DNA from: a virus
Reading direction: 5' to 3' (one strand)
IMG/VR virus record: IMGVR_UViG_3300008450_000557
Span: 1 to 21,283 of that record
Length of the DNA: 21,283 nucleotides
In this document: positions 1-21,283 of the stretch, one piece after another
Layout of the letters: each line of letters opens with the position of its first letter
How positions within the stretch are numbered: position 1 is the first letter of the stretch
The notes under the pieces: generated by a model
Databases searched by the model: none
What the model was told of the DNA's origin: nothing
The model's input: only the letters and a program-made list of their open reading frames with translations
Program-made: the position numbers and the translations under genes

Positions 1-393
1 ATAGCAGAAACAAGAATTTTGGATTTAGGGCCAAGACAAGAAGGATATTATTATAAACCACACCATTTAATAAAGATAAGAGATTTTTCAAACTATATTG
101 AATTAGGTGAAAATACAATAGATGAAATACCACCATACGCAAGTCTTAATGATGATGGTACATATTCATGGAGAGATTTAATGTCAATAGGTTTTAATGA
201 TGGTGAAATTCAAACCTTAGATTATCCATTTTTAAATGGTTCTCATTATAGATATCAGAATTATTGTTTTATATTAAAAAGACAAGACCCATACGCACAA
301 TGGGGGTTATTATATACTAATTTCCCATCAGACGCACCAGGTGATAGAATAACAGATAGATTTACAGTAAAAAGCTCCGACGATGTTTGCTAA
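1..393 (+). CDS. Unidentified phage structural-type protein, 3' end only (5' truncated by window edge)
   Basis: The reading frame is open from base 1 to the TAA ending at 393, so this is the C-terminal 130 residues of a longer protein. A TTG at 19 is only an internal Leu codon, not a convincing start. The visible part is rich in aromatic residues (YYYKPHH near the left end, then WRDLMSIGF, YPFLNGSHYRYQNY and KRQDPYAQWG), which suggests a compact globular domain. It has no signal peptide, membrane segment or low complexity. Its stop overlaps the next gene's ATG (383), so the two are translationally coupled and probably belong to the same virion/tail cluster. I do not recognise a named family. 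The structural assignment rests only on position upstream of tail genes. Confidence 0.72.
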   Translation: MAETRILDLGPRQEGYYYKPHHLIKIRDFSNYIELGENTIDEIPPYASLNDDGTYSWRDLMSIGFNDGEIQTLDYPFLNGSHYRYQNYCFILKRQDPYAQWGLLYTNFPSDAPGDRITDRFTVKSSDDVC

Positions 394-1240
394 CAAATAT
401 ACATTAAACTTACAAAATTTTAATACTGGTACAACAGAACAGTATGTTTCAATACCTATGGGTACTCAATTTCAAATTGTTGATAATGACGAATTGATAA
501 ATAGAGTATTTGTAAAAACTGAAGCACAAAATGCTGTAAATAAAATATTGGATTATGATAGGGTAAGGTATATGCCTATAACACCAAATAATGATTTGGT
601 TACATCAATAACTTATGATTTAAGTATATTTGATATTAATAACATATATACAACAAATTATGGAGGTATTGGTTTTCAATATGATGATGTTAAATTTAGA
701 AAGAACTCATTTAGTAAGACTTTTTTAAGATTATCTATTTTTGATAGTGATAACGCCATGACTCAAAATTTAGTTGGTTTTATAACATTATTTAGCAAAT
801 TAAGAACAATAGATTTAGAACCTAGTACAGGTGGTGTTATTGCTGGCGTACCTAAACCAATAAATGATATACCTATTAACTATACGCTTGAAAACCCTAT
901 TGTTAATAGACGAGGTTTTGCTGAAGGTTTTCATCTTTATTATTATAGAGATGCTTTAAATATAGGAGATTCAAAATATTTATATATGAAAGGTAGTTTT
1001 AACAATGCTAAGACTGGTAAAGCAACTAATTTAATGGTAAAAAATACACCACAATCAATTGATAAATTAGTAAACGAATTATATATAAGAATAATTATAA
1101 GTAGAACAACAACTGGGTATTATTATACCTTTGATGAAACATATCAAGGAAATCAAACTACCCCACCTAATACACCTAATAACATAACATTTGTTGGTAC
1201 AAACGTAAATGTTAAATTATACGAAGTAGACGCTTTATAA
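383..1240 (+). CDS. Unidentified virion/tail-cluster protein (285 aa)
   Basis: ATG at 383 lies inside the last codons of the preceding gene, and the TAA at 1238-1240 shares its last A with the ATG of the next gene. It is therefore in the middle of a translationally coupled run. The protein looks beta-rich, with alternating hydrophobic and polar residues and many Asn, Thr and Tyr. It has no signal peptide, membrane helix, coiled coil or catalytic motif I can recognise. Distinctive stretches are FSKTFLRLSIFDSD near residue 110 and RGFAEGFHLYYYRD near residue 178. By context it is a baseplate or tail structural component. This is inference from position; no family can be named from sequence alone. 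Confidence 0.8.
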   Translation: MFANKYTLNLQNFNTGTTEQYVSIPMGTQFQIVDNDELINRVFVKTEAQNAVNKILDYDRVRYMPITPNNDLVTSITYDLSIFDINNIYTTNYGGIGFQYDDVKFRKNSFSKTFLRLSIFDSDNAMTQNLVGFITLFSKLRTIDLEPSTGGVIAGVPKPINDIPINYTLENPIVNRRGFAEGFHLYYYRDALNIGDSKYLYMKGSFNNAKTGKATNLMVKNTPQSIDKLVNELYIRIIISRTTTGYYYTFDETYQGNQTTPPNTPNNITFVGTNVNVKLYEVDAL

Positions 1241-2115
1241 TGGAAGTAATTAAAAGAAAAATATTATTAGAAGAAGCAATAGATAGAAACTATAGTGGTA
1301 ACACATGGGGTACTGTTACTGCAACAACTTTTTATTTGGACATACAGTTAAATCAAACCATGGACGATATGGGGCTGTTTACAGATATTAATTATTTACC
1401 AAAACAAAAAAATGGGGTCGTCGATTATTCAATTCTAATTGAAAAATTAGAAGATTTGGCTATTTCATTCCCATTTATAAATGGTGTCGTACCAATGGAC
1501 TTCAGTTCAATTTTAACACCAACAGATAGAGCTGTACTACGTTTACCAACTAAACCGTTATCACACTATTATTATTATGGTAATAACCCATTAACTGGTA
1601 GTACAGATTCTAAAATAGATGATGTTCGTTCATATAAAAATGGTGAACCATACATTGCTGGTTTTAATATTAATGAAGAAACATATTTAAATTACAAAAA
1701 TATATTAATAAATGGTGTAGATAGAGTTACAAATATTGGAGAACCTAAAACATATGTTTTTGATACTACAGCTGATTTATCTATCGGTATGCCAACTCAA
1801 ACAACTGGAATACAATATAAAGATTATTCAGCATCAACAATAAGTCCTATTTTATTACCTGAAGGTATTGACTTACCAACAACTACGTTTAGATTTATAA
1901 GTGAAGGTTGGAACCAAACAAATACATCATTATCAGCATTAATGAAAGAAGAATTTTTATTAGGAATAATTTCTCGTCCAGAAGTTGAAAACGATGTATT
2001 TATTGATAGAGGTGTAGTACCAGTATTAGATTATCATTTAAGATTGTCAGAGATTAAAAATTTAGGTCAATTACAACAATATGGTAATGGGTATTATAAC
2101 ATAGATAGAATATGA
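1240..2115 (+). CDS. Unidentified virion/tail-cluster protein (291 aa)
   Basis: It starts at the ATG in TAATG shared with the upstream stop and ends with TGA in an ATGA overlap with the small ORF that follows. Residues 1-60 contain a mixed helix/strand region (MEVIKRKILLEEAIDRNY). The middle has YYYYG near residue 110, and the C-terminus has a charged segment (RPEVENDVFIDRGVVPVLDYHLRLSEI) that looks helical. No catalytic or metal-binding residues stand out. It is flanked on both sides by similarly sized proteins and all are probably tail/baseplate parts. Equal size and tight coupling suggest assembly in fixed proportion, but that is inference. Family not recognised. Confidence 0.8.
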   Translation: MEVIKRKILLEEAIDRNYSGNTWGTVTATTFYLDIQLNQTMDDMGLFTDINYLPKQKNGVVDYSILIEKLEDLAISFPFINGVVPMDFSSILTPTDRAVLRLPTKPLSHYYYYGNNPLTGSTDSKIDDVRSYKNGEPYIAGFNINEETYLNYKNILINGVDRVTNIGEPKTYVFDTTADLSIGMPTQTTGIQYKDYSASTISPILLPEGIDLPTTTFRFISEGWNQTNTSLSALMKEEFLLGIISRPEVENDVFIDRGVVPVLDYHLRLSEIKNLGQLQQYGNGYYNIDRI

Positions 2116-2243
2116 TAAAAAAATTAAACAAGTATTACGCGTTAATAAAATATTGCAACTTATCGATTGAAGACTTAAACGAAATGTCAGAATATGAAAT
2201 GGATTGCATGTATAATATAATAAAAGAAAAAATAGAAAAATAA
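2112..2243 (+). CDS. 43-aa acidic/helical miniprotein between two virion genes
   Basis: This is a short frame starting at the ATG of ATGA (2112), which overlaps the upstream TGA. It ends with TAA at 2241-2243, one base before the ATG at 2245. The exact fit between two genes with overlapping signals supports it being real. The translation starts MIKKLNKYYALIKYCNLSIE and continues with DLNEMSEYEMDCMYN and a lysine/glutamate-rich tail. The pattern 'LS-x-EDL-x-EMS-x-YE' looks like a small helical protein. In many tailed phages such small helical genes in tail clusters act as assembly helpers, but no specific homology can be claimed. Function unknown. Confidence 0.62.
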   Translation: MIKKLNKYYALIKYCNLSIEDLNEMSEYEMDCMYNIIKEKIEK

Positions 2244-2244
2244 T

Positions 2245-3159
2245 ATGGCAACAGGAAATTACGGAATAGTAAGACCAGCTGATATTTTACCAGAAGATGT
2301 TGAAATCTTCTACAGTTATTCAGCAACTAGAGATGTCCAAGGCACACCATTACAAAAATTAGACCCAACTCAAGTTTTGGTACCAATGCGTAACCCAAAC
2401 AATGCTTCTGGTATTGGTTTTGAAATCTTTGGTGGTATGTATACACTTAAATTACCAGTAACAACTTTTGGCGTTAAGGGTTATTATTCAATTATTATTA
2501 AACCTATTGAAATAAGAACAAGAATAGTTGATGTTGGTGTTTTATCTGCTTATCCTGATATAAAAGGTTTAGTATTTGATTTATCAACAATACCAACTAA
2601 TTTTTTACCAAAATTTGAAAATGATGGGCTTGTTGGTTATAGAATTGAATATTTAAATTCAACACCAATTGGAGATAATTTAAAAATTAATAACTTTTTT
2701 AGAGTTATAACATCTAATAATAGATGTGAACCAGTTAATCAAAACTTAACAAATACAAATCAAAAAGCCATAAGATATAGATTCAATGATAATTCAACAT
2801 TAACTTTCGCTACTGTATCACCAGCTTCAGCATCTAACGTTAAACCAAACGTATTACCATATATAGGCCAACCAAATCAAAATGTGATTATAACAAACAC
2901 GTTTTTTAATCCAGTTATGGTTGAAGTTGAGATGGTAGACCATGATATCGAAACATTGGCATTTGCGTTATTTGGAAATCAATCCAAATCACTTGAAGAT
3001 GGTATTTATACTATATACAATTTCAGTAATCAAATATACAAACAATACAATTTATACGAAATAAAAGACCAATTTAGTGGAAAACCATTGTTTGAAGTAA
3101 GAGAAGAAAGAAATAATATAGATTTTAGTAAAAACTTTAATAATATAAGACAAGCGTAA
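2245..3159 (+). CDS. Unidentified virion/tail-cluster protein (304 aa)
   Basis: The ATG at 2245 follows the preceding stop by one base. The upstream sequence is A-rich without a Shine-Dalgarno motif, typical of Bacteroidota. The protein opens MATGNYGIVRPADILPEDVE and is predominantly beta in character. Recognisable stretches are YSIIIKPIEIRTRIVDVGVL (about residues 92-111), FRVITSNNRCEPVNQNLTNT (about 151-170), and a C-terminal half with FFNPVMVEVEMVDHDIET. No signal peptide, coiled coil or enzyme motif is visible. It sits directly before the giant gpI-like gene, so a baseplate or tail-end structural role is the reasonable inference. I cannot name the family. Confidence 0.82.
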   Translation: MATGNYGIVRPADILPEDVEIFYSYSATRDVQGTPLQKLDPTQVLVPMRNPNNASGIGFEIFGGMYTLKLPVTTFGVKGYYSIIIKPIEIRTRIVDVGVLSAYPDIKGLVFDLSTIPTNFLPKFENDGLVGYRIEYLNSTPIGDNLKINNFFRVITSNNRCEPVNQNLTNTNQKAIRYRFNDNSTLTFATVSPASASNVKPNVLPYIGQPNQNVIITNTFFNPVMVEVEMVDHDIETLAFALFGNQSKSLEDGIYTIYNFSNQIYKQYNLYEIKDQFSGKPLFEVREERNNIDFSKNFNNIRQA

Positions 3160-3167
3160 TATAAGAA

Positions 3168-6100
3168 ATGGCTAACGACACAATAAAAGTTGCTGGGTAT
3201 GTAAAAAAAGTTATATACAACGGCAACATAGAATATAGGAATTACAACCCAGATTTAGTTGGTTTACAATTAACTAGTGAGGGTGGTACACCATTGTTTA
3301 CAATGGGTAATTTCAATATTACGACAAATTTAGACCCAAAACTTAGTAAGCTTTTTGTAACAAAACAATTTTCAGATTTTGTTACTTTAGATGGGTTAAA
3401 TTTATCCGTTAGTCAGACAGAAACATTATTAAACAATAATGCTACAGTATTCTTAAATATTGACAAATCTAAGTTATCCTATTATGCTACGTTTGGTTCT
3501 TTAACTGAATTCATCAGAGTTGGTTTAGAAAACATTATTATCAATTGGCCAGCTTCAATATACATGCAACCAATTAAAAGTTTACCAGATGGTGAACAAT
3601 TAATCGGTAATACTTATGAAAATTACTACTATGACAATTTAACAAATATATCGTCTTTTAGAATACCAACAAATTTTATTAAAAACCCGTATAATATAAA
3701 CTATTTAACAAATGGTGATATAAGCGGTACATTTAACGAAACAAATACTCTTCGTAATATGGTTACTGATTTCGCATCATACGCTATGTTAATTAATTCA
3801 GTAGAATACGATGTTGTTGGTTTTACAGGTTCTACTAGTACTACTAATGATTATATTTATTTTGAAATAAAAAATAATCCATTTACAGCAACTAGTAATA
3901 CGATAAGTTATCACATAAAACCAAAAGCGATAATATGTGATAATTTTTTTAATAGTTTAGATGAATTTGAATATTATTTATTAAACAGACAAACCTATCC
4001 AATATACACATCCACTTTTAAATATCCACTTAGAAGTGATTTTGGTGTTTTATTATATACCGAAACCACTCTAACATGGCCAACTTCAGATGGGTATAAT
4101 TTAGATTATAACACATCAGCTTATAATGATTATGCCACATTGTTACTTAATTTAGCTAGTGATAGTGATTTAATTAATAGTAACATTATGACTAGATTCT
4201 TAGTCAGTGAATCTATTACTGGTTTTGATACTTTACCATATTATTTGGCTGATGAAGACCAAGATACTTCTGGTGGTAAAATAAATAAATTGCTTAATAT
4301 ATATGGTGTGTCTTATGATAATTTTAACAGATATATAGAAGGGTTAGCTTTCGCAAATACTGTTAGTTATAATAAAATGGATAATACACCAGATGTTTAT
4401 TTAAAAAACATAGCTAGAGTTATGGGTTGGGAGTTAATAGATTCCGTTATAAGCAACGACTTATTAACAGATTATATTCAAACCAGCCAATCAACTTATA
4501 GTGGCCAATCAGTAGGTTTAACACCAGTTGAAGCTGATATAGAACTTTGGAGAAGAATTATATTAAACACCCCATGGATTTGGAAATCTAAAGGAACCAG
4601 AAGTGGTGTTGAATTTTTACTTAGATTTATAGGAACACCAAATGGGTTAGTTACCTTTAATGAATACCTATATAAAGTAGATGGACCGATTGATGTTGAT
4701 TTATTTAGAACTGTTTTAGAATTAAATGGTTTAGAGCCTGATATTACCAATTACCCTATTGATAGTGAAGGATACCCTAGATTTTTTGATGATACGGATG
4801 ACATGTATTTTCAAGGAAATGGTTTATGGTATAGAGAAACTAGTGGACCAAACACAATATTGGATATAACAACAGGTAACAACCCACACGTAGGGCCATA
4901 TGATGGAGGTTATAAATATTTCAATCAATTAAGAAGTTTAATAGCAGATTTTTCAGCTGTTACTATTACCTCTGATACTACAACATCAACTTCACAAGAT
5001 TTATTTACAAATTATAATACAGGTGAAATAACAGATTATAATGGTGAAACATATGTTGATTTGGTATACGCTAATGGTTTACAATTACCAAACTGTGTGG
5101 TCACATCAACTGAAATAATTCCTGACCCAAAACCACAACCAATTACAACAGAATGTGGTTGTGAATATGACGAAAATGACGATTCTTTAAGTATTTGTAT
5201 TGAAAAAATTGAACCACCAATACCAGAAGAAAATTGTTTTGTTGGTTATGATTTAGAACCTGATAGTGGGTTATTTGTATTTACTCAATATTATGAAGAC
5301 AATTTAGGCAACCCAACAATAGTGCCATATAAAACTTTTTTAATTGATAGAGATTGCTGTACATCACCTCCAGTTGAAGGTGTTTCGATGTATAACGATA
5401 TTATCGATGTTAATACTAGTACTATCCAATCTGGTTATGTTTGTTGTAAAAAAGGAACTAAATGTGCTTGTAATGTTTCAAAAGATTGGGCGATAAGACA
5501 AACACCTACTTATATAAATGGGGAACCATACATAACATTTGCAACACTTAATGGGTTAAACGGTAGTACAAATGTGATAGTTGGTGCTGATGCTAGTTTA
5601 TGTCCAGCACCAGGAGTATGGTCAGAAGTTGTTCAAAATGTTATAGACCCATTTTCAGGTATAGTTGGTTTTGGTTGCAAATTAACACCTTATGGTTTAA
5701 CAAATATAGGTGTTTTATATAATGGATATCTAGATAGAATTAAAAAAGGTACTGGGTGTAATTATGCGTTTGGTAATTTAATACCTAATCCAACAAACCC
5801 TACTAACCCAACAAACCCTACTAACCCAGTAACAACACCAAGTTGTGTACCACCAGTTTTAACTTCTATAGTTAGAAATAGTTTAGACGGTAGTATTACA
5901 GCTACATGGACATTAAGTAATATACCATGTAGTAACGGTACAGTAAGAATTCAATTCTCAACTGATAATGTTAACTGGTCAAATTTAACTTTAACTAACC
6001 CATCTGTTTTTGTTTCAAATTTAACAGCAACATCAATTGGTGGTTATAACTTTAATTCTTTAGTTTATTTTAGAATTAATTTAGAATATGGTTTAAGTGC

Positions 6101-6575
6101 TGATTGTAATGACCCATTAACAAAATGTGATGTTATTTCTAACACATCTAGTATTGATTTTACAACCACAATAGGTCCAGGTGGACCAACACAACCAAGT
6201 TTTACACGTGAAAGAGTTCTTATATCACAAACTTCATTTGATATATCAAATCTTGTTTTACAGCAAGGTGCAGTGCCAAATGAATTTATTAACATGTGTA
6301 TAGATTTTAATGATGGTTTTTTTAATGATAGATACATTGATAGTCAAAATTATGCAACATTTGATTTTACAGTCGGTGATAGAGTATCATACATAGCACC
6401 AAATGGTAGTATTGGCTCACCATTAATAGGTCAAAATAAATGGTGGGTTCTAGAATATAAGATACAACCAGCTACAATATTAGGTAAAATATGTAAAATA
6501 GACAACAATGGGTATATACAACAAATATATAATTTCCAATGTAGCGACATAATACCACCACCAAACTCACAATAA
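3168..6575 (+). CDS. Large baseplate/tail protein with P2 gpI-like segment, Cys-rich region and C-terminal beta domain (1135 aa)
   Basis: Residues about 405-495 carry a pattern typical of the P2 gpI / phage tail-protein family: DVYLKNIARVMGWEL, then LWRRIILNTPWIWKSKGT followed by GVEFLLRFIG, i.e. an 'LA..LGW ... RR.I ... KGT..G...LL' signature. In that family the protein belongs to the baseplate wedge region of contractile tails. The N-terminal 400 residues are beta-rich and unassigned. Residues about 640-790 are Cys-rich (ECGCE, RDCC, VCCKKGTKCAC). An (Asn-Pro-Thr) linker at residues 874-887 leads into a fibronectin-III-like beta domain (about 888-1005; SITATWTLS, VRIQFSTDNVNWSNL), then a C-terminal tail. 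The length far exceeds ordinary gpI proteins (under about 300 aa), so this is a multi-domain fusion. The gpI similarity is read by eye and is moderately secure; the other domains are less so. Confidence 0.85.
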   Translation: MANDTIKVAGYVKKVIYNGNIEYRNYNPDLVGLQLTSEGGTPLFTMGNFNITTNLDPKLSKLFVTKQFSDFVTLDGLNLSVSQTETLLNNNATVFLNIDKSKLSYYATFGSLTEFIRVGLENIIINWPASIYMQPIKSLPDGEQLIGNTYENYYYDNLTNISSFRIPTNFIKNPYNINYLTNGDISGTFNETNTLRNMVTDFASYAMLINSVEYDVVGFTGSTSTTNDYIYFEIKNNPFTATSNTISYHIKPKAIICDNFFNSLDEFEYYLLNRQTYPIYTSTFKYPLRSDFGVLLYTETTLTWPTSDGYNLDYNTSAYNDYATLLLNLASDSDLINSNIMTRFLVSESITGFDTLPYYLADEDQDTSGGKINKLLNIYGVSYDNFNRYIEGLAFANTVSYNKMDNTPDVYLKNIARVMGWELIDSVISNDLLTDYIQTSQSTYSGQSVGLTPVEADIELWRRIILNTPWIWKSKGTRSGVEFLLRFIGTPNGLVTFNEYLYKVDGPIDVDLFRTVLELNGLEPDITNYPIDSEGYPRFFDDTDDMYFQGNGLWYRETSGPNTILDITTGNNPHVGPYDGGYKYFNQLRSLIADFSAVTITSDTTTSTSQDLFTNYNTGEITDYNGETYVDLVYANGLQLPNCVVTSTEIIPDPKPQPITTECGCEYDENDDSLSICIEKIEPPIPEENCFVGYDLEPDSGLFVFTQYYEDNLGNPTIVPYKTFLIDRDCCTSPPVEGVSMYNDIIDVNTSTIQSGYVCCKKGTKCACNVSKDWAIRQTPTYINGEPYITFATLNGLNGSTNVIVGADASLCPAPGVWSEVVQNVIDPFSGIVGFGCKLTPYGLTNIGVLYNGYLDRIKKGTGCNYAFGNLIPNPTNPTNPTNPTNPVTTPSCVPPVLTSIVRNSLDGSITATWTLSNIPCSNGTVRIQFSTDNVNWSNLTLTNPSVFVSNLTATSIGGYNFNSLVYFRINLEYGLSADCNDPLTKCDVISNTSSIDFTTTIGPGGPTQPSFTRERVLISQTSFDISNLVLQQGAVPNEFINMCIDFNDGFFNDRYIDSQNYATFDFTVGDRVSYIAPNGSIGSPLIGQNKWWVLEYKIQPATILGKICKIDNNGYIQQIYNFQCSDIIPPPNSQ
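5787..5828 (+). repeat. In-frame tandem (Asn-Pro-Thr) repeat coding a proline-rich linker
   Basis: Nine-base units alternating aatcca/aaccct/aaccca with aca/act encode NPT repeated four times plus a final NP. The repeat joins the Cys-rich region to the C-terminal beta domain of the 1135-aa protein. Proline-rich spacing of this kind normally forms an extended, flexible linker. Alternating third-position bases (cct versus cca) show the repeat is diverging at the DNA level while the peptide is kept. Confidence 0.85.
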
Positions 6576-6580
6576 TTAAA

Positions 6581-6597
6581 ATAAATATATTTATAAT
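6581..6597 (+). promoter_or_regulatory. Possible phage late-promoter motif TATTTATAAT, overlapping a 14-bp palindrome
   Basis: The 33-base gap before the 1194-aa gene contains TATTTATAAT (6588-6597), 11 bases upstream of ATG 6609. It overlaps the perfect palindrome ATAAATATATTTAT (6581-6594). The same TATTTATAA core recurs in the gaps before the 712-aa fibre gene and before the resolvase. TATTTATA is the reverse complement of the T4 late promoter core TATAAATA. Whether this phage uses such a motif is inference; in AT-rich DNA the motif is weak on its own. Confidence 0.35.
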
Positions 6598-6608
6598 AAA
6601 ACAAAAAA

Positions 6609-9600
6609 ATGCCTATAACACCAAAACAATATACCAGTGTTTTACTTCAATGTGATAAAATTTGGGATACTATCTTTAATTACAATGGTGGAGATGTTGT
6701 ATTTGTACCAGATGGTACTATATATGCTGAAACATCAAATGGTGATGGTACTTTTAGCCCTTATCAAACAACAAAAATTTGTTGTGAAATACTAAAAAAT
6801 AGATTATTAGCACAAAACCCACCACAATATCCGTCAAATGTTGACCCAAATAATATTTATTTTGATTTAGATGAACAAAAATGTAGATGGAGTCAAACAC
6901 CAGATTCATCATGTTTATCAAACCAACCTATTAAAATAGTTTTAAACCCAGTTGGTAATGATGGTGCATTTTTTACTTTAACTGAAAATGATACATGTAG
7001 ATTGGAAGTTAGTTTTGATTATTTATTTAAGATAAAATGTAGTCATTTAGGAAACATATTTTACTACAACCGTATAAATAACTCTGGAGGTGGTAGTCCT
7101 GCAATTCCCCCTAGAGTTAGTGAGACAGAGTTAATACAAAATAAATTTACTAAAGAATCGGAATTGTTAGATATTAATAATGAATTAGAAAGTTTATCTA
7201 AACAAGCTGCAAACATATCATATTCAATCACATGTAATGATTTTCCAACCACAGAAGAGGTTGTAACAGCAACACCAACAACAGAAATAACCCCAGTGCA
7301 AAAATTACCGTTTTTAAATACTGGTTTTGGTTCATTAACAAATGAAACACAAATAACAACATCAAAAACAAAAGTTGCTCCAGTTTATGAAACAAAAAGT
7401 GTTAATTTTTGTTTAACAGATATTGGTTTAGATGCTTGGAGACTTATTTTGGGTGACAATAATTATAATGAATTTATAAATGGTAATCCAGATAGTTATA
7501 CATGTTTAGATGTTATTGAAATAGATAATCAAAACCAAGAAAGTATAGTTAATAATGGTGAAAAATTAATTTTTGAATGTGAGACACCTTTTGGTGAAAA
7601 AACAAATTTATTAAATAAAATTTCAGAATTAGCAGGAATTCAAAAAAGTATTAAAAATGAAATAGAAATTTTAGATGCTGGTATAACACGCATTGGAGAT
7701 ATTGTTGACCCATGTTCAAGCTTAATAGGACAATTTGAAAATATTAGCGCTAGCGCAACTTTAGACCTTATTGATGAAAATAATAACATAACTCAAATCC
7801 ATATAGATAATTTTTTTCCAACTCATGCAAATTTATACGAATACTTAACACAAACACAAGACAATAGTGGGTTCTTTGTTTGTGGTGACCCATCAACAAC
7901 AGAAACATGGGCTTCTGGTTGTACTGGTTTAGTTTATCCAGAATTTACTTATTACGGTGTTATAGAAGATGATGAAGAATTAAATGTGTCAATTTGTGAC
8001 AACATAAAAGATGTGTTACAACAAGAACTTTTTAATTCATCTAATATTGCAACGTTAAGTGGATTTAATAGCTCATTATCATCAAATGTGTTTAATTCAA
8101 ATTGGTTAACGCATAGCTTCACAATAAGCGACCCACGAATCATATCTGGTGCGACTGATAACCAGATAAAATTAAATATTATTATTAATAGTTCATGTGA
8201 TAATTTTTGTTTATTAATTGACCAAATTAATATGACCAAAGTTTGTGACGACGCTAATAGAACAAATATTTTTATTAGCGAATCACCAGGCTTCGAAATA
8301 ACAAGAATTATAGATAATAAAAAATCATGGTTACAAGTAGAAAACACAACTGATAGAAATTTCTTTGTTGCAAATTATGACGATTCAAACAAAATACGTC
8401 AAACAGAATACACAGTTGATGAAGATAGACTTATTTTAAATTCAAAAGAGATAGATTTAACCATGAATATGGCATCAGCTGTTGAGAATGATGTATGGTG
8501 CTATTTGGTTGACAACCCAAATGTGCTAACTGGTATCACATGTGAATCAATAACTGGTTTTACACCTACGGATAGTTTTGGTAACTCTATTGTATTACCT
8601 ACTGCTCAAACCGCAACTTCAGCTGTGAATCTAATTTTGCTTGCTTATAAATATGTGAGTAATTGTCTTAGAAACCAACTATTAGGAAATCCACCAGACG
8701 TAGGTTGTTACCCAGAAATTGAATGTCAATTATGTGGTAAAATTTTAAAAATAGTTCTTAATCAAGGTAATGATTATTATAATTTGTGGGTGACATGTCA
8801 AGATAATGGTGATTTAGGTTTTTATTATATTGATGATTTATCAGATGTACAAAATAACATTTATAATGTAACTAATGAGTTTGTTACTAATGGTATAACA
8901 AGTTTAAATGATTTTATTAAGTATGTTAATGTTAATATGGCAATTACAAATCCAGAAATTGTTCCTTTTGATACATTTTGGGATACAACTAATGGTAAAT
9001 GTAATTCATGTTGTATTTCTTGTGGGGACCAATCAATAAATTTCACTGGTTTTATGACAACAAATATTACAGAAGTTAACACACTTGAGACTTTTGAAGA
9101 ATTAATGATATCTGAATTAACAGATGCAAAAAATAGAAAAGTATTATCCTCATACCCAACACTTAAAGCTGTGTATGATAGATATCTTAACGCAACGCAA
9201 TATGGTATCCCAGCTAGTAATGAATTTGATTATTATAAAATGGATAAATTCACTGGTCTTATTAAGAGTTATTGGGATGATTTGATTGAACAAGTTGTGC
9301 CAGCAACAACTATTTGGGGAAGTGTAAAAGTGTATACCAATACTTTCTTTGACCAGCAAAAATTTAAATATAGAAGTTATAGTTCACTATTATGTAATAA
9401 CCCATTAAATTTTATAACACCACCTAGCCCTATAAACGGCTCTAGTGGTTTATGTCAAAGTGTTGAGGTTATAACAACAAATATAAATCCTTTTGCTGCT
9501 AGTGGGACAACTGTTACTAGTAACAAGAAAAAAACATATAATAGCGTATGTATATCACAAATGAATTGGGGTTCTGAATTTATTGGCAATGTGGATATCC

Positions 9601-10193: not shown

Positions 10194-10240
10194 ACTAAAA
10201 ATAACACTGGATATGTCGCAATACTATAATATTTATTAAT

Positions 10241-10483
10241 ATGATACATTTAATTAAAAACATACAAGGTATTTTTATAACCGAAATAAAAGGTAATGTA
10301 AAATATTCTAAATCAGTAACTGGAGAAGTTCAAAGAGAAGATTATATTGATATTTATGGGTTTAAAGCATTTTTGCAAAATTTTTCAAAAACACCAATAA
10401 CTAGTGGTATGGTTATACCAAACCCTTTTGGGTATAAACCACCTGTAGGTATAACACAAAAAAACATAGAGATTAGTTACTAA
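10241..10483 (+). CDS. Small unidentified virion-cluster protein (80 aa)
   Basis: The ATG at 10241 follows a 47-base gap after the giant gene, and the TAA ends two bases before the next ATG (10486). The protein is basic to neutral: an N-terminal strand-like part (MIHLIKNIQGIFITEIKGNV), a central helix candidate (YGFKAFLQNF) and a C-terminal Pro/Gly-rich section (IPNPFGYKPPVGIT). No motifs of known function are visible. Its close coupling to the fibre-like 506-aa gene suggests it works with it, for example as an assembly partner or small structural subunit. That is inference. Confidence 0.68.
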   Translation: MIHLIKNIQGIFITEIKGNVKYSKSVTGEVQREDYIDIYGFKAFLQNFSKTPITSGMVIPNPFGYKPPVGITQKNIEISY

Positions 10484-10485
10484 TA

Positions 10486-12006: not shown

Positions 12007-12023
12007 TATTCTTTACAATTGCA

Positions 12024-12033
12024 TATTTATAAT
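12024..12033 (+). promoter_or_regulatory. Possible late-promoter motif TATTTATAAT
   Basis: TATTTATAAT lies in the 57-base gap before the 712-aa fibre gene, 30 bases upstream of ATG 12064. It is identical over ten bases to the element before the 1194-aa gene. The rest of the gap is A-rich and otherwise featureless. Promoter function is inferred from recurrence in gaps, not demonstrated. Confidence 0.35.
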
Positions 12034-12063
12034 TAAAATAAAGACAAAAGATAAAACAAAATT

Positions 12064-14202: not shown

Positions 14203-14212
14203 TATATAAAAA

Positions 14213-15418
14213 ATGGGATATAACAGCACAGCAACAACAATTACATTAACCGCTAGGTTAACACCAATAGGCAGAGAAAGAATGATTTCAACTAACAACG
14301 GTTTGATAAAAACTTTTAGTTTAGGTGATTCAGATGCTAATTATTACACAAATTTATCACTATCAACAGGTGAAGTGCCTAGTATTGCTGGTAATATAGG
14401 TGTAAGCAACTCAATTAGCAATAGCACAACCAGAGCTGTTGGTTTAAAAAATGCATTAATAGTAAATTCTAGTGGATTATTAACAAAAGCAGTTGCTACT
14501 AAATCAAGTAGTATTTTATCAGAATACGAAGCGGTTGGTTATACAACAGTTAGTGGTAATAATTTAACATATTCAGTAATAAACAGAACAGATTACACAA
14601 CAGATGCAAAAACTAATTTATATTATTCTTTTGGATTGCCAATTACGGATGCTAACTTTACAACATTTACCTCAACAACATCATCAACTAATGGTTATGC
14701 TAATACAGCATTTAGTGGTTTCGCAGTAAACAAAATAATAGCAATAGCAATAAATAATTCAACTTATGGTGATTTAATTGATGGTAAAACACTTAAAATA
14801 GATTTACCAACCAGTGCTGGTACGTATACAATATATTCTACATATCAATACAATACACAACCTCTAAACATTTTAGACAGCACGTTTACTGATAATAATA
14901 ACTCTAGAAGTAATATATTTGGACCTAATGTTTCTATGCTTGTATCCGATTCTATTATGACACCAAATGGTGGTGACCCAACATTAAGCTGGGCTACAGG
15001 TTATAATTTAGATAGACCGTTTAGTTATGCTGGAAAGAAAACATACAATTATCAAACAAATACAAATTTATCTTTAACCGCAGATACCTTAGTTGGTATT
15101 GCTTATTTAGATAAAGGGTTTATTGTTATTACAGACCCAACAATAGTTAATAACTATACAGCTTCAGCAACAACAGCAACAACTATTAGCTTTAATAGTC
15201 AATCTGTGGGTGTATACCAAATTATAAATTGTGTTGCTGATAGAGGTGAATTTGGTTCTAGTACAAATCCAACATTTGAATTTAACGATACGCCTAGAAT
15301 AAGTGAGGTTGGTTTATACGATGATATTGGAAACTTAATAGCATATGCTAAACCAGACAGACAAATATCTAAAAATATAAACGAATTTTTAGCTCTTTCA
15401 ATAAAAATTAGCGTTTAA
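14213..15418 (+). CDS. Tail fibre/baseplate-attachment protein, smaller paralogue (401 aa)
   Basis: ATG 14213 follows TATATAAAAA ten bases after the upstream stop. The N-terminus (ITLTARLTPIGRERM, then FSLGDSDANYYTN) matches the start of the 712-aa neighbour. The C-terminus (GEFGSSTNPT, then ISEVGLYDDIGNLIAYAK) matches its end, including the shared 'F-x-S-TNPT ... EVG-x-YD ... NL' pattern. The middle (about residues 60-330) is Ser/Thr/Asn-rich beta sequence unrelated at sight to its paralogue, as expected for parts that diversify with host receptors. It is the last gene of the structural block, and a strong inverted repeat begins within its stop codon. Role inferred as fibre or baseplate periphery. 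Confidence 0.8.
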   Translation: MGYNSTATTITLTARLTPIGRERMISTNNGLIKTFSLGDSDANYYTNLSLSTGEVPSIAGNIGVSNSISNSTTRAVGLKNALIVNSSGLLTKAVATKSSSILSEYEAVGYTTVSGNNLTYSVINRTDYTTDAKTNLYYSFGLPITDANFTTFTSTTSSTNGYANTAFSGFAVNKIIAIAINNSTYGDLIDGKTLKIDLPTSAGTYTIYSTYQYNTQPLNILDSTFTDNNNSRSNIFGPNVSMLVSDSIMTPNGGDPTLSWATGYNLDRPFSYAGKKTYNYQTNTNLSLTADTLVGIAYLDKGFIVITDPTIVNNYTASATTATTISFNSQSVGVYQIINCVADRGEFGSSTNPTFEFNDTPRISEVGLYDDIGNLIAYAKPDRQISKNINEFLALSIKISV

Positions 15419-15446: not shown

Positions 15447-15465
15447 ATTACTAATAAAAAGTTAT

Positions 15466-16116
15466 ATGGAAAAAGAACCAGAGTTTTTATTAGCCCTAGA
15501 TATTTCAACTAGCACTATAGGTATTGCTTTATTTGAGGATAAGGGGGATAAGGGTGATATTAAATTGCTTCATCATGTTAGTCCAAAGGTAAAACCTAAA
15601 CCTAACAATAAAATGGAAGAACTTTTTAGAAAAGTTGAAATATTTGAAAGCGAGTTTTTGTCAAACTATGCTGATTTTGGTATAACAAAAGTCGTAATAG
15701 AAGAACCATTACTACAATCAAACAATGTTTACACAATAGCCACACTATTAAGATTCAATGGGATGATATCTAAATCAGTCTATGATACAATAGGTGTGGT
15801 ACCAGAATTTATATCATCTTACGATGCTCGTAAATATGCTTTCCCAGAATTAATGGCTGTTCGAACAACTAAAAAAGATGGTACACTATTAACAGAAAAA
15901 CAAATTTCTAAAAACACACCAGTTTTATTTGGTGGATACCCATATGATATTGATAAAAAATATGTCTTATGGGAAAAGGTTGCTGAATTGGAACCACAAA
16001 TCACATGGTTCTATGATAAAAACAATAAACTTAAGAAAGAAACTTTTGATACTTCAGATGCTTATGTTTGTGGTTTAGCGTTCTTTAATAAACGTAATCT
16101 AGAAAAAGAACAATAA
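15466..16116 (+). CDS. RuvC-like Holliday junction resolvase (216 aa)
   Basis: This is an RNase H-fold nuclease of the RuvC type. The first acidic motif is LLALDISTSTIGIALF (catalytic D12). The second is KVVIEEPLL (E79 or E80), followed by a helix with NVYTIATLLRFNGMI. The last is FDTSDAY (D195 and D198), the DxxDA motif that completes the metal site. RuvC-type enzymes resolve four-way DNA junctions; in phages they debranch replicated DNA so that it can be packaged. The length is slightly above bacterial RuvC (about 170-190 aa), with an insertion at about 130-175. The ATG at 15466 follows an A-rich leader. Placement directly after virion genes with a shared upstream motif fits late expression for packaging, as with T4 endonuclease VII, which has an unrelated fold but the same job. 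No frameshift or missing catalytic residue. Confidence 0.88.
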   Translation: MEKEPEFLLALDISTSTIGIALFEDKGDKGDIKLLHHVSPKVKPKPNNKMEELFRKVEIFESEFLSNYADFGITKVVIEEPLLQSNNVYTIATLLRFNGMISKSVYDTIGVVPEFISSYDARKYAFPELMAVRTTKKDGTLLTEKQISKNTPVLFGGYPYDIDKKYVLWEKVAELEPQITWFYDKNNKLKKETFDTSDAYVCGLAFFNKRNLEKEQ

Positions 16117-16121
16117 AATTA

Positions 16122-16157
16122 TTTGCAAATATACTTATTATGCTGTATATTTGCAAA
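16122..16157. promoter_or_regulatory. Host-type (Bacteroidota) promoter embedded in a perfect 12-bp inverted repeat, upstream of primase
   Basis: TTG (16123-16125), 20 bases, then TATATTTG (16146-16153) matches the Bacteroidota TTG/TAnnTTTG promoter. The whole element is the inverted repeat TTTGCAAATATA (16122-16133), 12-base spacer, TATATTTGCAAA (16146-16157). It ends immediately before ATG 16158. Because of the symmetry an equally good promoter reads leftward on the - strand. Expected start of + strand RNA is close to 16157-16160, so the primase message would be leaderless or nearly so. The element could also act as a repressor operator or as an RNA hairpin in read-through transcripts. Confidence 0.7.
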
Positions 16158-17096
16158 ATGAATTATTTACCAACCATATTTGAAAGTTTTTTAGGTGAAC
16201 CTAGAAAACACAACCATGAGACAGGTCAAATGGCTTTTGACTGTCCAGCTTGTTCTGCTGATAAAGGCGAATATTTGGGTGATGGTAAGGGTAATTTAGA
16301 AATGAACTACAATAAAGGTGTTTACAAATGCTGGGTTTGTTATGAAACAAACCGCATGCATGGTTCCTTAGAAAATCTTGTAAAAAAATACGGAAATACT
16401 ACACACTTAAAAGAATACTTGTTATTCAAACCAGATTACGATTACACCAAAAAAGATAGCGAAAGAATAATAATTAGGTTACCAGAAGGGTATAAAAAAC
16501 TATCAGAGTGTACTAGTAAAGATTATATGTCAGATTTGGCCAAAAAATACTTAAAAAACAGAGGTATAGGTGATGACATTATAGAAGAATTTAATATAGG
16601 TTATACAATAACTGGTGATTTTAAAAACAGGATAATTATACCGTCTTATGATGAAGATAATTATCTAAACTATTTTATAGCTAGATGGTTTTTAAATAAA
16701 AAAACAAAAGTAAAATACTTAAACCCACACGCTGAAAAATCTGAAATAATATTTAATGAAAATAAAGTAAATTGGGATGCAACAATATATTTAGTTGAAG
16801 GTGTTACAGACCACATAGTAGTACCCAATTCAATACCATTGCTAGGTAAATTTTTATCAACAAATCTAAAAGAAAAATTATTAGAGAAATCAAAAGCTTT
16901 CATTGTTATATTATTAGATAGCGATGCTTATGAAGATGCTATTAGATTATATAGAGAATTAAATGTTAGCGACCTAAGAGGTAGAATAAAATTGTGTTTA
17001 CCACCAGAAGGTCATGACCCATCCAGTATTTACCAATATTTAGGTTCTAAGGGTATTGTAAAATTATTAAGTAGTTCCCATAATTTAAGCGATTAA
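16158..17096 (+). CDS. DnaG-type DNA primase (zinc-binding plus TOPRIM, 312 aa)
   Basis: This protein would lay RNA primers for lagging-strand synthesis at the phage fork. The N-terminal zinc ribbon has FDCPAC (C29, C32) and YKCWVC (C58, C61). A middle region (about 120-205) includes YLKNRGIGDDIIEEFNIGYT and RIIIPSYDED, typical of the primase catalytic-core N-lobe. The TOPRIM domain has YLVEGVTDHI (E214) and VILLDSDAYEDA (D254, D256), followed by GHDPSS. I chose the ATG at 16158 rather than the in-frame ATG at 16140: the latter lies upstream of and within the promoter/inverted repeat and would add only MLYICK. The protein is much shorter than bacterial DnaG (about 600 aa) because the helicase-binding C-terminal domain is missing, as is common in phages. 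Confidence 0.88.
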   Translation: MNYLPTIFESFLGEPRKHNHETGQMAFDCPACSADKGEYLGDGKGNLEMNYNKGVYKCWVCYETNRMHGSLENLVKKYGNTTHLKEYLLFKPDYDYTKKDSERIIIRLPEGYKKLSECTSKDYMSDLAKKYLKNRGIGDDIIEEFNIGYTITGDFKNRIIIPSYDEDNYLNYFIARWFLNKKTKVKYLNPHAEKSEIIFNENKVNWDATIYLVEGVTDHIVVPNSIPLLGKFLSTNLKEKLLEKSKAFIVILLDSDAYEDAIRLYRELNVSDLRGRIKLCLPPEGHDPSSIYQYLGSKGIVKLLSSSHNLSD

Positions 17097-17099
17097 AAG

Positions 17100-17132
17100 T
17101 TGTAAATATAGTATTTTATTAGTATATTTGCA
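17100..17132 (+). promoter_or_regulatory. Host-type (Bacteroidota) promoter upstream of the PD-(D/E)XK nuclease
   Basis: TTG (17100-17102), 20 bases, then TATATTTG (17123-17130) is the same arrangement as the primase promoter. The symmetric core TGTAAATATA (17101-17110), N12, TATATTTGCA (17123-17132) differs from a perfect repeat by a single T/C change. The predicted RNA start is near 17133, giving a leader of about 15 bases before ATG 17148. The element probably drives the nuclease-to-SbcC run. Confidence 0.72.
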
Positions 17133-17147
17133 GTAAATGTATTTTTT

Positions 17148-17930
17148 ATGGCAAACGCGAAATTATGGACAGGTCCTGTATACTTAGAACCGATAGAACA
17201 CAAATATCATCACAGAGAAACTGGTAAGATATATAAATCAGTTACCACCACACTAACATCAATTGAACCACATTTTGATTCAGAGGCCGTTTCTTTGGCT
17301 ATTGTAAACCAACCAGATAACGTAAAACAAGAACGTTATATTGGTTTAACACAACAACAAATCCTTGATTATTGGCAAATGTTAAACGATGAAGCAAACG
17401 TATACGGTACTAGAGTACACGATATAGTTGAAAGATATTTGTTGGCTAACAAGTGGTATTTTCCAGAAGATACTGAAGAAGGTAAATTTGAACAAGCTGT
17501 TATTGATGGTTGGAATGCTTTAAAAATGGATGAAGGTGTTGCAATGTGGCCAGAGAGAATTATGTTTTCTGAACAATACGAATTGGCTGGTATGTCTGAC
17601 CTTGTTATTGATGTTGATGAAACATACTTTGATATATGGGATTGGAAAACAAACAGAGAATTCAATTTCTTTAACCAATACGGATATGAAACACTTTATA
17701 AACCATTTGACCACTTACAAGCATGTCAATGGTCAATTTATACATTACAATTAAGTGTTTATGCTTATATGTATGAATTGGAGTTCCCACATAGAAAATG
17801 TAGACAAATATGTATTGGTTATTGGGATAAAGAAAAATTAACCTTTCAAAAAATTCAAATAATGTATCTTAAACATGAGGCGAAGAAACTTATTGAGATG
17901 CACCACTATAATATAATGAAAAATGCATAA
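17148..17930 (+). CDS. PD-(D/E)XK nuclease, RecB/Cas4-like (260 aa)
   Basis: The RecB-type nuclease motifs are in order: GTRVHDIVERYL (H91), SEQYELAGMSDLVI (E142, G148, D151), then FDIWDWKT (D165 and K167, the D-x-K of the active site) and QLSVYAYMYELE (Q201 and Y205, the QxxxY motif). Enzymes of this fold cleave or degrade DNA; in phages they act as recombination exonucleases or DNA-processing endonucleases. The length is close to stand-alone Cas4/RecB-like phage nucleases. The four-cysteine iron-sulphur cluster of Cas4 is not evident, since only a few scattered Cys remain, so it is not a typical Cas4. The start is the first ATG after the promoter. It sits in one operon with Mre11- and Rad50-like genes, so a joint end-processing role is likely. 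Confidence 0.85.
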   Translation: MANAKLWTGPVYLEPIEHKYHHRETGKIYKSVTTTLTSIEPHFDSEAVSLAIVNQPDNVKQERYIGLTQQQILDYWQMLNDEANVYGTRVHDIVERYLLANKWYFPEDTEEGKFEQAVIDGWNALKMDEGVAMWPERIMFSEQYELAGMSDLVIDVDETYFDIWDWKTNREFNFFNQYGYETLYKPFDHLQACQWSIYTLQLSVYAYMYELEFPHRKCRQICIGYWDKEKLTFQKIQIMYLKHEAKKLIEMHHYNIMKNA

Positions 17931-18192
17931 TAGAAATTTATACGAACCCTTTAATGATGAGCAATTATATAAAATTGTTCATGATGGTTGGCCAGAATTT
18001 AAACACGCTTTGAGTCATGAATTAAAACATGGTACTGATTCAGTATTAGCTTTATCAATGCAAAGCACTGCTAGCGTTCTAATAATGGATAGAGAAGAAT
18101 TATTAGACATGATAGGTTTAATGGATAAATATATTTACAAATTAAATAAATACAACGAAGAAAATGGTAAAGAAGATAATACACTTAGCTGA
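17923..18192 (+). CDS. Small unidentified protein in recombination operon (89 aa)
   Basis: The ATG at 17923 overlaps the end of the nuclease gene by eight bases, and the 3' end overlaps the SbcD-like gene by 29 bases in another frame. The protein looks mostly helical and acidic. An N-terminal segment has FNDEQLYKIVHDGWPEFKHA, and a central to C-terminal part has MDREELLDMIGLMDKYIYKL. No catalytic motif or zinc site is visible. Long overlaps with genes for recombination nucleases suggest co-regulation and perhaps a partner protein. Function unknown. Confidence 0.7.
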   Translation: MHNRNLYEPFNDEQLYKIVHDGWPEFKHALSHELKHGTDSVLALSMQSTASVLIMDREELLDMIGLMDKYIYKLNKYNEENGKEDNTLS

Positions 18193-18976
18193 TATACACC
18201 TTAGAACTTTTCGTATGCACGAAGAGTATATGTCAGTGTTTAAAAATTTAATGTCTGATTTAACAGATTTGTTATCAGAATACAAAAAAGAAGAAATCAG
18301 AATAGTTATTGCTGGAGATTTGGTTCATCAAAAGATTGTAATATCAAACGAACAACTTATGCTTGGTACATGGTTTCTAAGAAACCTTGAAGAAATAGCA
18401 CCAGTTATTATGATTGCTGGTAATCATGATTTATTAGAAAACAATAAAGACCGAATAGATTCAATATCACCTATGGTTCAATTTTTATTCGATAAAAATG
18501 TAAACTATTTCAAAGAATCAAAATGCTATTTGGATGATAACATTGTATGGTGTGTTTATTCAATATTTGAAGATAACTCAAGACCAGACATTGAAGCGGC
18601 TAGAGAACAATTTGGAAACGATAAAACATATATTGGATTGTATCACGCACCAATTATAAATGCTAAAACAGATATTGGATATGAGATTGACCATGGTGGT
18701 GAGCTTGAAATATTTGAAGGGTGTGATATTGCAATGCTAGGTGACATTCACAAGCGTCAATCATTCAACCATAAGGGGATTCCAATCGCGTATCCATCAA
18801 GTCTTATTCAACAAAACTTTGGTGAGAATGTAAGCAAACACGGATTCTTATTATGGGATGTTGAAACAAAAACATTTACAGAACATGATGTTGACAACAA
18901 ATCACCATTTTATCAGTTTAAAATAAAGTCCCTTGAAGACCTCGATAATGGGACAGAGGTATTAACAAATTTATAA
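18164..18976 (+). CDS. SbcD/Mre11-like metallophosphoesterase nuclease (T4 gp47 type, 270 aa)
   Basis: All calcineurin-like phosphoesterase motifs are present: LADIHLR (D10, H12), VIAGDLVHQ (D52, H55), MIAGNHDLL (N87, H88, D89), YIGLYHAP (H161) and MLGDIHKRQ (D194, H196, Q199). SbcD/Mre11 proteins pair with SbcC/Rad50 ATPases to trim DNA ends. In T4 the gp47/gp46 pair resects ends for recombination-dependent replication and degrades host DNA. The partner gene lies two small genes downstream. The start at 18164 puts DxH at the normal N-terminal position despite the 29-base overlap with the upstream gene. At 270 aa it is shorter than T4 gp47 (about 340 aa) and bacterial SbcD (about 400 aa). The C-terminal capping and Rad50-binding part is therefore reduced. 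Confidence 0.9.
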   Translation: MVKKIIHLADIHLRTFRMHEEYMSVFKNLMSDLTDLLSEYKKEEIRIVIAGDLVHQKIVISNEQLMLGTWFLRNLEEIAPVIMIAGNHDLLENNKDRIDSISPMVQFLFDKNVNYFKESKCYLDDNIVWCVYSIFEDNSRPDIEAAREQFGNDKTYIGLYHAPIINAKTDIGYEIDHGGELEIFEGCDIAMLGDIHKRQSFNHKGIPIAYPSSLIQQNFGENVSKHGFLLWDVETKTFTEHDVDNKSPFYQFKIKSLEDLDNGTEVLTNL

Positions 18977-19206: not shown

Positions 19207-19624
19207 AGAATTTAAAGACGAAATCTGGGATTACTGTAGACTTAACAATATTACAAATATTGATGAGTTTATGGTTAAGTGTTTGAAACAAGGTTTCACA
19301 GCTGAAAAATATGGAGCCACACCAACAGTAAGAGAAAAGATTGTTGAAAAAGAAATAGAAAAGATTGTAGAAGTTGAAGTGGAGAAAATTGTAGAAAAGA
19401 TTATTGAAGTTCAAGTTGAAAAAGAAGTTTTCATTACTGATAATAAAGAAATGAAAAAATTAACAAAAGAAATTGGTAGATTAAATGGTCTTATAGAAAC
19501 AAATAAAGAAACTATCGATAAACAAACATTAGACTTTGCAAACTTGGAAATAGAAAACAATAAATTAAAAAAAGATTTAGAACTAGAAAAAAAGAAAAAG
19601 AAAACTGATTTGTATGGGGAATAA
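19193..19624 (+). CDS. Coiled-coil protein with Lys-Ile-Val-Glu repeats (143 aa)
   Basis: ATG 19193 lies inside the preceding gene. The N-terminal ~45 residues form a small domain (FKDEIWDYCRLNNITNIDEF, then CLKQGFTAEKYGATP). Residues about 48-84 are a run of charged/aliphatic repeats built on EKIVE, KEIEKIVE and EVEVEKIVE. Residues 85-140 are a classic coiled coil (KKLTKEIGRLNGLIETNKET onward, ending KKKKKTDLYGE). This gene directly precedes and slightly overlaps the Rad50-like gene, itself a coiled-coil protein, so it might pair with it or form a separate scaffold. Function unknown. The repeat makes homology searches prone to false hits. Confidence 0.75.
   Translation: MEVNKEFKDEIWDYCRLNNITNIDEFMVKCLKQGFTAEKYGATPTVREKIVEKEIEKIVEVEVEKIVEKIIEVQVEKEVFITDNKEMKKLTKEIGRLNGLIETNKETIDKQTLDFANLEIENNKLKKDLELEKKKKKTDLYGE
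19336..19430 (+). repeat. Degenerate in-frame repeat encoding EKIVE-type units
   Basis: Purine-rich DNA built from variants of aaaattgtagaa/aagattgttgaa encodes about five K-I-V/I-E units in the coiled-coil gene. Units are variable in length and codons, so this is a peptide-level repeat rather than a recent tandem DNA duplication. Confidence 0.6.
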
Positions 19625-21283
19625 TACACAACACATGACGGACAATTTAACACTACTATCTCCAAATGCTAAGATTAAAGTATATTGGGATGACCAACCA
19701 CATAACTATAGTCGTGAAGCTAAGAACAAAATAAAGAATTATTTTGCGTCTAAGTATGGTTTTAATAAAAACAATATAAATGTCATTTACAGACCAATCA
19801 AAAAAACAGCTAACGGTGATGTTATTGAAATAACAGGTGCTGGTATTGAAAATATAATGGATGTAAATTACCAGAGGAGTCTTATGAAAGAATTTATAAG
19901 TAGAGAAGGTAAAAATATTGATTTTAATAGGATATTAGCATTAGATGAAAAGGTAAATGGTGAATTAAATATTGACTTGAACAACATTCAACATAAGAGT
20001 TGGTCTATAAAGTGGATTATGATAGATAACTTTCTTTCATTTGGTGAACAAAACTATGTTCCATTTACAAAATTAAAAGGTCTTACAATTGTAAATTCAA
20101 TCCCAGCAAATCAAGGTGGTAAAACAACCCTTACGATTGACGCTATAAAATTTCTATTACACGGTAATACAACAAAAACAGACACCAACGAACAAATATT
20201 CAATCAATTCTCAGATAAAAATGAATTGGTTGTTAGAGGTATGATTGAAATTGAAAATGAGGAAACAATCATTGAACGTAAAATGAGAAGAACTGCTAAG
20301 AAAGGTGGTGGTTGGACCGTTGTTAATAAAGTAAATTATTATAAGATATTACCAGATGGAGATGAAGAAGAATTAAATGAAGAAGATGCAAAACAAACAA
20401 CTAGAAAAATTAAAGATAGTATAGGTTCTGAAAAAGATTTTGAAATGCTTGTATTGGCAACTGAAAAAAATCTAGATGAACTTATTGGTTTAACAACCTC
20501 AGAATCTGGTAAAATACTTACCAGACTAATAGGGCTTGAAGTTTTAGAAATGAAAGAGGCGATAGTGCGCACAATGTATAATGAATTTTCTAGAAAGAAA
20601 AAATCTAATGAATATGATGTAATCACATTAAATCAAGAAATAGAAGAACACCAAGATAAGATTCAACAGTTTCAAGACCTTGAACAATCTTTAAATGAAG
20701 AATTAGATACAGCCAAGGATAAGATTAAGAAATTAGAAGAAGAAAGAGACGAGTTACTATCAAATAAACAAACTATTGATGTAACCATATCAGAATTGAA
20801 TCCTGATAGCCTAGAAGACAGTATTAAGACTATTACTGATAAAGGTATCGAACTTGGTAATAAAGTGTCTGAAATCAAACAAGAATTGGTTAAAATTGGT
20901 GATGTTAATTTTGATGAGGATATTTTTCACGAATTAACTAAAAAATCTGGTTCATTAAACACACAAAAAGCATTAAAAGAAGCTGAGATTAAAAGACTTA
21001 AAAAAGTTGTATCAGATTTAATAGCTGGGGGTGTATGCCAATCGTGTAATAGAAAACTTGATGATGTTGATAATTCAGAACACATAGCTAAGCATGAACT
21101 CGAGATTGAAAAATTAAATAATGAATTAGCTGAAATAGAAAAAAAATTAAAAGATACTGACACTAAGTTAGAAACACTTGATGCTATTAAAAGATTAGTA
21201 GATGATAAAAATAAAAAAGAATTAGATATAGATAGGTTAGAAGTTGAGATGGGTGGTCTTAGAAATAAAGTCGTTGAAAAGAA
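19614..21283 (+). CDS. SbcC/Rad50-like ATPase (T4 gp46 type), 3' truncated by window edge, with extended N-terminus
   Basis: The frame is open from ATG 19614 (alternative ATG 19635) to the right edge, so about 556 residues of N-terminal sequence are visible. Numbering from 19635, the first ~128 residues are an extra domain (KIKVYWDDQPHNYSREAKNK, then EITGAGIENIMD). A typical Rad50 start follows (WIMIDNFLSFGEQNYVPF), then a Walker A-like loop PANQGGKTT (157-165), and LVLATEKNLDELIGLTTSES in the Q-loop region. A long coiled coil leads to a zinc hook VCQSC (C468, C471), and the returning coil begins. The C-terminal ATPase lobe lies beyond the window. With the SbcD-like protein it should form an end-resecting complex. 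The Walker A lacks its first glycine (Pro instead). Confidence 0.88.
   Translation, partial: MGNNTQHMTDNLTLLSPNAKIKVYWDDQPHNYSREAKNKIKNYFASKYGFNKNNINVIYRPIKKTANGDVIEITGAGIENIMDVNYQRSLMKEFISREGKNIDFNRILALDEKVNGELNIDLNNIQHKSWSIKWIMIDNFLSFGEQNYVPFTKLKGLTIVNSIPANQGGKTTLTIDAIKFLLHGNTTKTDTNEQIFNQFSDKNELVVRGMIEIENEETIIERKMRRTAKKGGGWTVVNKVNYYKILPDGDEEELNEEDAKQTTRKIKDSIGSEKDFEMLVLATEKNLDELIGLTTSESGKILTRLIGLEVLEMKEAIVRTMYNEFSRKKKSNEYDVITLNQEIEEHQDKIQQFQDLEQSLNEELDTAKDKIKKLEEERDELLSNKQTIDVTISELNPDSLEDSIKTITDKGIELGNKVSEIKQELVKIGDVNFDEDIFHELTKKSGSLNTQKALKEAEIKRLKKVVSDLIAGGVCQSCNRKLDDVDNSEHIAKHELEIEKLNNELAEIEKKLKDTDTKLETLDAIKRLVDDKNKKELDIDRLEVEMGGLRNKVVEK

Follow-up and report, generated by a model that had tools for sequence, protein, structure and literature searches.

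The tetranucleotide GATC is completely absent from a 21,283-base fragment of viral DNA, very probably because its lineage has long evaded Type II restriction by hosts that cut at this site. The fragment is IMG/VR virus record IMGVR_UViG_3300008450_000557, which we analyzed whole and call the window. An earlier note, made from the sequence alone, had reported the absence and had anticipated some tens of sites. Our counts agree on both points: at 30% G+C, the window has no GATC on either strand, and every control puts the expectation at 33 or more. Base composition predicts 56.6 copies and a second-order Markov model 42.3. Dinucleotide-preserving shuffles (100) gave 33.5 ± 5.1, and synonymous codon shuffling of the 15 coding sequences (CDS) in the window gave 34.5, with a minimum of 29 in 50 shuffles. 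The Poisson probability of finding none is ~1e-15. If elimination is taken to require 15 or more expected sites and an observed-to-expected ratio close to zero, the window, with 0 against 33-42, is a case of it.

Chance, composition or codon usage therefore has a negligible probability as the cause, even in an AT-rich genome of low C content. Beyond the counts themselves, unrelated loci of similar composition (L036, L040-L046) contain normal or near-normal GATC, as do Flavobacterium phage immuto and LR756508. Codon shuffles, the codon context of aspartate and a non-palindrome control agree that the depletion goes beyond composition or codon usage.

The earlier note also took the loss to be selective for a single palindrome. 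Those other palindromes that it named (GGCC, CATG, AGCT, GTAC, TCGA, GCGC and CGCG) do occur, but the loss is not confined to one, because CCGG is also missing from both strands of the window. Between 4.3 and 10 copies are expected, and codon shuffling gives a mean of 7.4 and a lowest value of 3.

Loss and regain of GATC across the lineage

Since the record consists of only 21,283 bases, whole-genome checks were made on relatives. We placed 75 relatives of the window's 712-aa tail protein (52-86% identity) on a tree and counted GATC in each fetched locus (L numbers; records carry G numbers). GATC is absent from 72 of the 75 loci, where 16-68 copies are expected. One locus, L096, contains a single copy, and two more, L101 and L067, contain many. 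To cover whole records, we searched for WWGATCWW and then counted GATC itself. The longer motif is missing from 21 lineage records of up to 368 kb, compared to 19-179 occurrences of the reversed control. GATC was likewise zero in whole records where a Markov model expects 708 (G006, 306 kb), 1,113 (G002, 368 kb), 1,100 (G003, 363 kb) and 806 (G005, 353 kb). With codon shuffling in CDS as the control, the count was 0 against 622 in G004 (362 kb), 361 in G009, 313 in G010, 289 in G012 and 279 in G013; for the CDS of the large records, this expectation is 530-780.

The two GATC-bearing relatives are nested at separate positions within purged clades of the tail-protein tree. L101, from record G014 (81 kb), has 119 evenly distributed copies against 188 expected, and L067 (10 kb) has 31 against 40. 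In both, the pressure against GATC appears to have lapsed. Two nested regains indicate that the loss is not a fixed replication, compositional or mutational property of the lineage. On the same tree, L097, L113 and L081 have CCGG, and the other loci have none or almost none.

Record G001 (locus L122) is a scaffold joined by 10 Ns at 90703-90712; its left ~91 kb has no GATC and hardly any CCGG, while in its right part, which also codes for an S21 protein, both are present but less frequent than normal. Although it looks half purged, we set it aside because it is probably a chimeric scaffold of two phages joined at the Ns. Separately, distant SbcD relatives (L019-L031, L037, L039) belong to a further phage group, whose purged set differs: GATC occurs 0-3 times against 17-74 expected, CATG is strongly depleted (e.g., 12 against 63), and CTAG is also low in some of them.

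Site removal and the wider set of purged motifs

Codon choice reveals how GATC is avoided. Although GAT prevails elsewhere as the aspartate codon, it is never used before a codon starting with C, with 0 of 28 cases in the window and 0 of 358 in G006. Serine codons that follow NGA codons in purged genomes are always AGY, and ATC is never used for isoleucine after NNG codons. At conserved residues, the GATC sites of L101 and L067 align mostly to GACC, then to GATT, in relatives. GATC purging is the work of selection, acting largely through synonymous changes.

A mutational route, in which GATC cytosines are methylated and then deaminate, or some other neighbor-dependent bias operates, is extremely unlikely. 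It would account for the mild excess of the cytosine-deamination product GATT/AATC (1.06-1.16 of the codon-shuffle expectation) and for GATT as a common replacement at homologous sites. However, the strongest excess is in GACC/GGTC (1.30-1.56), which is not a deamination product, and bias does not yield exact zeros across 360 kb. Furthermore, palindromic 4-mers were lost while no non-palindromic 4-mer was: under codon shuffling, each genome has purged 2-3 of the 16 palindromes and none of the 240 non-palindromes.

The purged sets extend to longer motifs and differ by phage, as would follow from hosts that vary in their enzymes. G006 lacks GATC, CCGG and CTGCAG, and in the closest long relative of the window, CTGCAG occurs 0 times against 27 expected in CDS. 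G002 additionally lacks CGCG, AGCGCT, GCTAGC, TGGCCA and GTGCAC. G003 retains CCGG (484 copies), yet ACCGGT, TCCGGA and GCCGGT/ACCGGC are all at zero. G005 (locus L099, 353 kb) lacks CCATGG, CACGTG and CTGCAG, and its losses include asymmetric motifs, counted on both strands against codon shuffling: TCAGG/CCTGA (0 against ~298), GCAGG/CCTGC (0 against ~151), GAGGAG/CTCCTC (0 against ~62) and CTGAAG/CTTCAG (1 against ~154).

Restriction and its alternatives

Base modification of the phage DNA is compatible with the sequence but would make purging unnecessary. The D12 (Dam-type) methyltransferase family PF02086 was found in 0 of 30 records and the N6_N4 type (PF01555) in 0 of 23, while the C5 type (PF00145) was found in 1 of 23, G013. 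Methylation thus does not appear to be how the phages protect themselves, and their virion DNA is presumably unmodified. The G013 match (locus L112, 137699-139714) is a 706-aa open frame, both halves of which resemble C5 methyltransferases. Despite this frame, G013 lacks GATC and has CCGG once against ~94 expected.

We consider it very probable that GATC elimination reflects evasion of long-lived Type II restriction, with a host enzyme as the likely cutting agent. The earlier note's proposal of restriction is supported as the likeliest cause. For its other suggestion, methyl-directed (DpnI-type) cleavage, nothing was found in support, the hosts themselves not having been tested. The phages are probably lytic: T4-like portal, capsid and terminase genes are present, and no integrase is among the families listed. 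Such lytic T4-like jumbo phages, with DNA apparently unprotected at GATC, would escape restriction by offering no site. Any newly arisen GATC would render the whole genome cleavable in hosts with a DpnII/MboI- or Sau3AI-type enzyme, and variants with synonymous or tolerated alternatives would take over. This pressure would have acted through most of the lineage's history and lapsed at least twice, after which sites could re-accumulate. CCGG, CGCG, CTGCAG and the phage-specific sets may have been purged by the same process, depending on the hosts met.

Two observations weigh against this explanation. Flavobacterium phage immuto and LR756508 have Bacteroidota-type leaders, and GATC is normal in the 50 kb read. 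In addition, recognizable GATC restriction enzymes are uncommon in our Bacteroidota sample (~2% strong matches), whereas purging is near-universal. The earlier note had suggested looking for such systems in this phylum. Among 395 Bacteroidota genomes, full-length DpnII-type enzymes occur in 2 (11 past the cut-off) and MutH/Sau3AI-domain proteins in 6, five of them 463-514 aa long. Unless the true hosts are enriched for such enzymes or use unrecognized ones, this rarity does not fit easily. Most of the GATC-enzyme genes examined adjoin open reading frames (ORFs) with adenine- or C5-methyltransferase motifs. A GATC restriction-modification system has been experimentally characterized in Prevotella intermedia (PMC5608340).

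The same survey bears on another idea, that the phages evade methyl-directed mismatch repair or Dam-linked regulation. We regard this as very unlikely. MutH is a gammaproteobacterial feature, which counts against it. Bacteroidota proteins that match the MutH domain are few, and most have the length of Sau3AI (463-514 aa); of the four genes examined, three adjoin C5-methyltransferase-like ORFs. The idea would also offer no explanation for the purging of the remaining motifs, CCGG, CGCG and CTGCAG among them. Its appeal comes from phiX174, which lacks GATC and in which added sites lower the mutation rate (PMC5014478).

A phage-encoded nuclease could also keep its own genome free of GATC if it degraded host or competitor DNA at this site. 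This would easily explain an old, near-universal trait, and G006 does encode HNH_3, Endonuclease_7, Endonuclease_NS and PD-(D/E)XK proteins. We nevertheless judge it unlikely, as the different motif sets would require many nucleases and every nuclease-like gene in the window has an ortholog in the GATC-bearing G014. These include the RuvC-like resolvase and the PD-(D/E)XK protein; the latter is unlikely to be a GATC cutter because its G014 ortholog (65% identical) coexists with GATC. Among the Pfam families listed from scans of part of the G006 ORFs, with 25 families listed per batch, there is no match to DpnII, MutH or any other GATC enzyme. Similarly unlikely is a mixed version, in which almost the entire lineage carries a phage-borne or virion-packaged GATC nuclease that destroys host and rival DNA and spares the site-free phage, while host enzymes account for the other motifs.

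The phage, its host and comparable systems

Judged by its genes, the window comes from the genome of a T4-like jumbo myovirus (Table 1). Large virion or tail-type proteins are followed by genes for replication and recombination-type proteins, in the order RuvC-like resolvase, primase, PD-(D/E)XK nuclease, SbcD-like and SbcC-like. None of the proteins of the structural block had a PHROG match. The gene order continues in G006, where most replication genes are 78-93% identical and T4-type portal, capsid, protease and terminase genes are present. Neither a near-identity DNA search of the window nor a search with the tail protein found a match among phage records.

Table 1. Features of the window and the evidence for each.
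Feature	Position	Strand	Basis
Whole window without GATC and without CCGG	1..21283	both	Counts and shuffles
Late/structural block: large virion, tail and adhesin-like proteins	383..15418	+	Role inferred from gene order and sequence character
712-aa protein (tail protein), lineage marker for the tree	12064-14202	+	ORF; relatives
RuvC-like Holliday junction resolvase	15466..16116	+	PHROG 159, E 2e-7
DnaG-type DNA primase	16140..17096	+	PHROG 47, E 3e-37; Pfam DNAG_N
PD-(D/E)XK nuclease-superfamily protein	17148..17930	+	Pfam PF12705
SbcD-like (gp47-type) metallophosphoesterase	18164..18976	+	Pfam PF00149; relatives
SbcC-like (gp46-type) AAA ATPase, continuing past the window end	19614..21281	+	Pfam PF13476

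The host phylum is probably Bacteroidota, in a freshwater-type habitat. In G006, Shine-Dalgarno motifs precede 2% of genes against a 4% background, and A is frequent in the leaders near positions -10 to -14 and -3. A-rich leaders without Shine-Dalgarno motifs are a Bacteroidota pattern. Among named phages, those with the most closely related capsid proteins include Flavobacterium immuto phages. These features, together with a Type IX secretion system (T9SS) sorting domain, are the grounds for the assignment, and at the level of phylum they support the earlier note, which had named Bacteroidota. The sorting domain (Por_Secre_tail) lies at the C-terminus of a 630-aa phage protein of G006 (L153:12619-14511), suggesting that this protein may be exported by the machinery of a Bacteroidota host. 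Thymidylate synthase has its best matches, at 61% and 56%, in contigs of metagenome-assembled genomes, one labeled Bacteroidetes, which is too weak for naming a host.

We also considered a cyanobacterial host. The idea arose from a Microcystis phage relative, Mel-JY01, and from some purged hexamers that resemble cyanobacterial enzyme specificities. It was rejected because leaders in the lineage lack Shine-Dalgarno motifs, unlike those of Mel-JY01, and the T9SS domain is present. Mel-JY01 (L360, L361, L239; 116 of 190 kb) is a related T4-like phage from another host phylum with Shine-Dalgarno-type leaders and its own purged pair: GATC 0 against ~218 and CTAG 0 against ~90, with CCGG normal.

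Among cultured Bacteroidota jumbo phages, Tenacibaculum phage pT24 (L365) is similar in that its first 50 kb contain no GATC (144 expected) and no CCGG (14 expected). Its SbcD, the one gene used for comparison, is only distantly related (26% identity), and the lack of sites probably reflects parallel purging. GGCC is also absent from this stretch (1-50000; 6 expected), and the phage offers a practical test system. The bS21-encoding jumbo phages of freshwater Bacteroidetes are likewise jumbo myoviruses, of up to 331 kb, with predicted freshwater Bacteroidetes hosts, and the main text describing them mentions neither restriction nor GATC (PMC9723584). No S21 gene (PF01165) turned up in the purged records searched, the only copy lying in that portion of the chimeric G001 that is not purged, so membership in the bS21 clade is not supported.

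Site elimination as an anti-restriction strategy is already established. Staphylococcus phage K has a 140-kb genome without GATC sites and evades Sau3A (PMC6532042). Phage K and other Kayviruses resemble the phages here in being large myoviruses with complete GATC elimination; they are lytic, as the phages here probably are, and infect hosts with a GATC-specific Type II enzyme (PMC6532042). Phage K, however, is a 140-kb phage of a Gram-positive host, compared to 306-368 kb here, where the trait spans many divergent relatives and further purged motifs. The lack of GATC in phiX174 is also complete, but this is a tiny single-stranded DNA coliphage with a proposed link to mismatch repair (PMC5014478). 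Across almost 4,000 viruses, Rusinov et al. (2018) found near-complete site elimination in about one-tenth of genomes, essentially of orthodox Type II sites and most strongly in non-temperate double-stranded DNA phages, with GATC among the most avoided and with elimination affecting under 0.5% of non-Type II sites (PMC6286503). Several relatives of the window differ from this picture in that they have lost a large number of motifs together, asymmetric 5-6-mers among them.

Although the kind of phenomenon is known, its scale (more than 1,000 expected sites), its persistence through a deep lineage with documented regains and the multi-motif, partly asymmetric purging are new. We found no prior report of such purging in these phages in the openly accessible literature, subscription literature being outside our search. 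The elimination of asymmetric motifs that is apparent in some relatives (TCAGG and GCAGG, for example, have no copies in 353 kb) would add to the results of a survey in which non-orthodox systems showed almost none. A jumbo genome stripped of all of its ~1,000 expected sites, in a state maintained across deep divergence and abandoned on at least two occasions, demonstrates strongly, from nature, that even very large phage genomes can be shaped by Type II restriction, and the GATC-bearing relatives provide natural comparisons. The motifs that each phage has purged can be read as a log of the restriction specificities of its hosts, which could help to predict the hosts and enzymes of uncultured phages.

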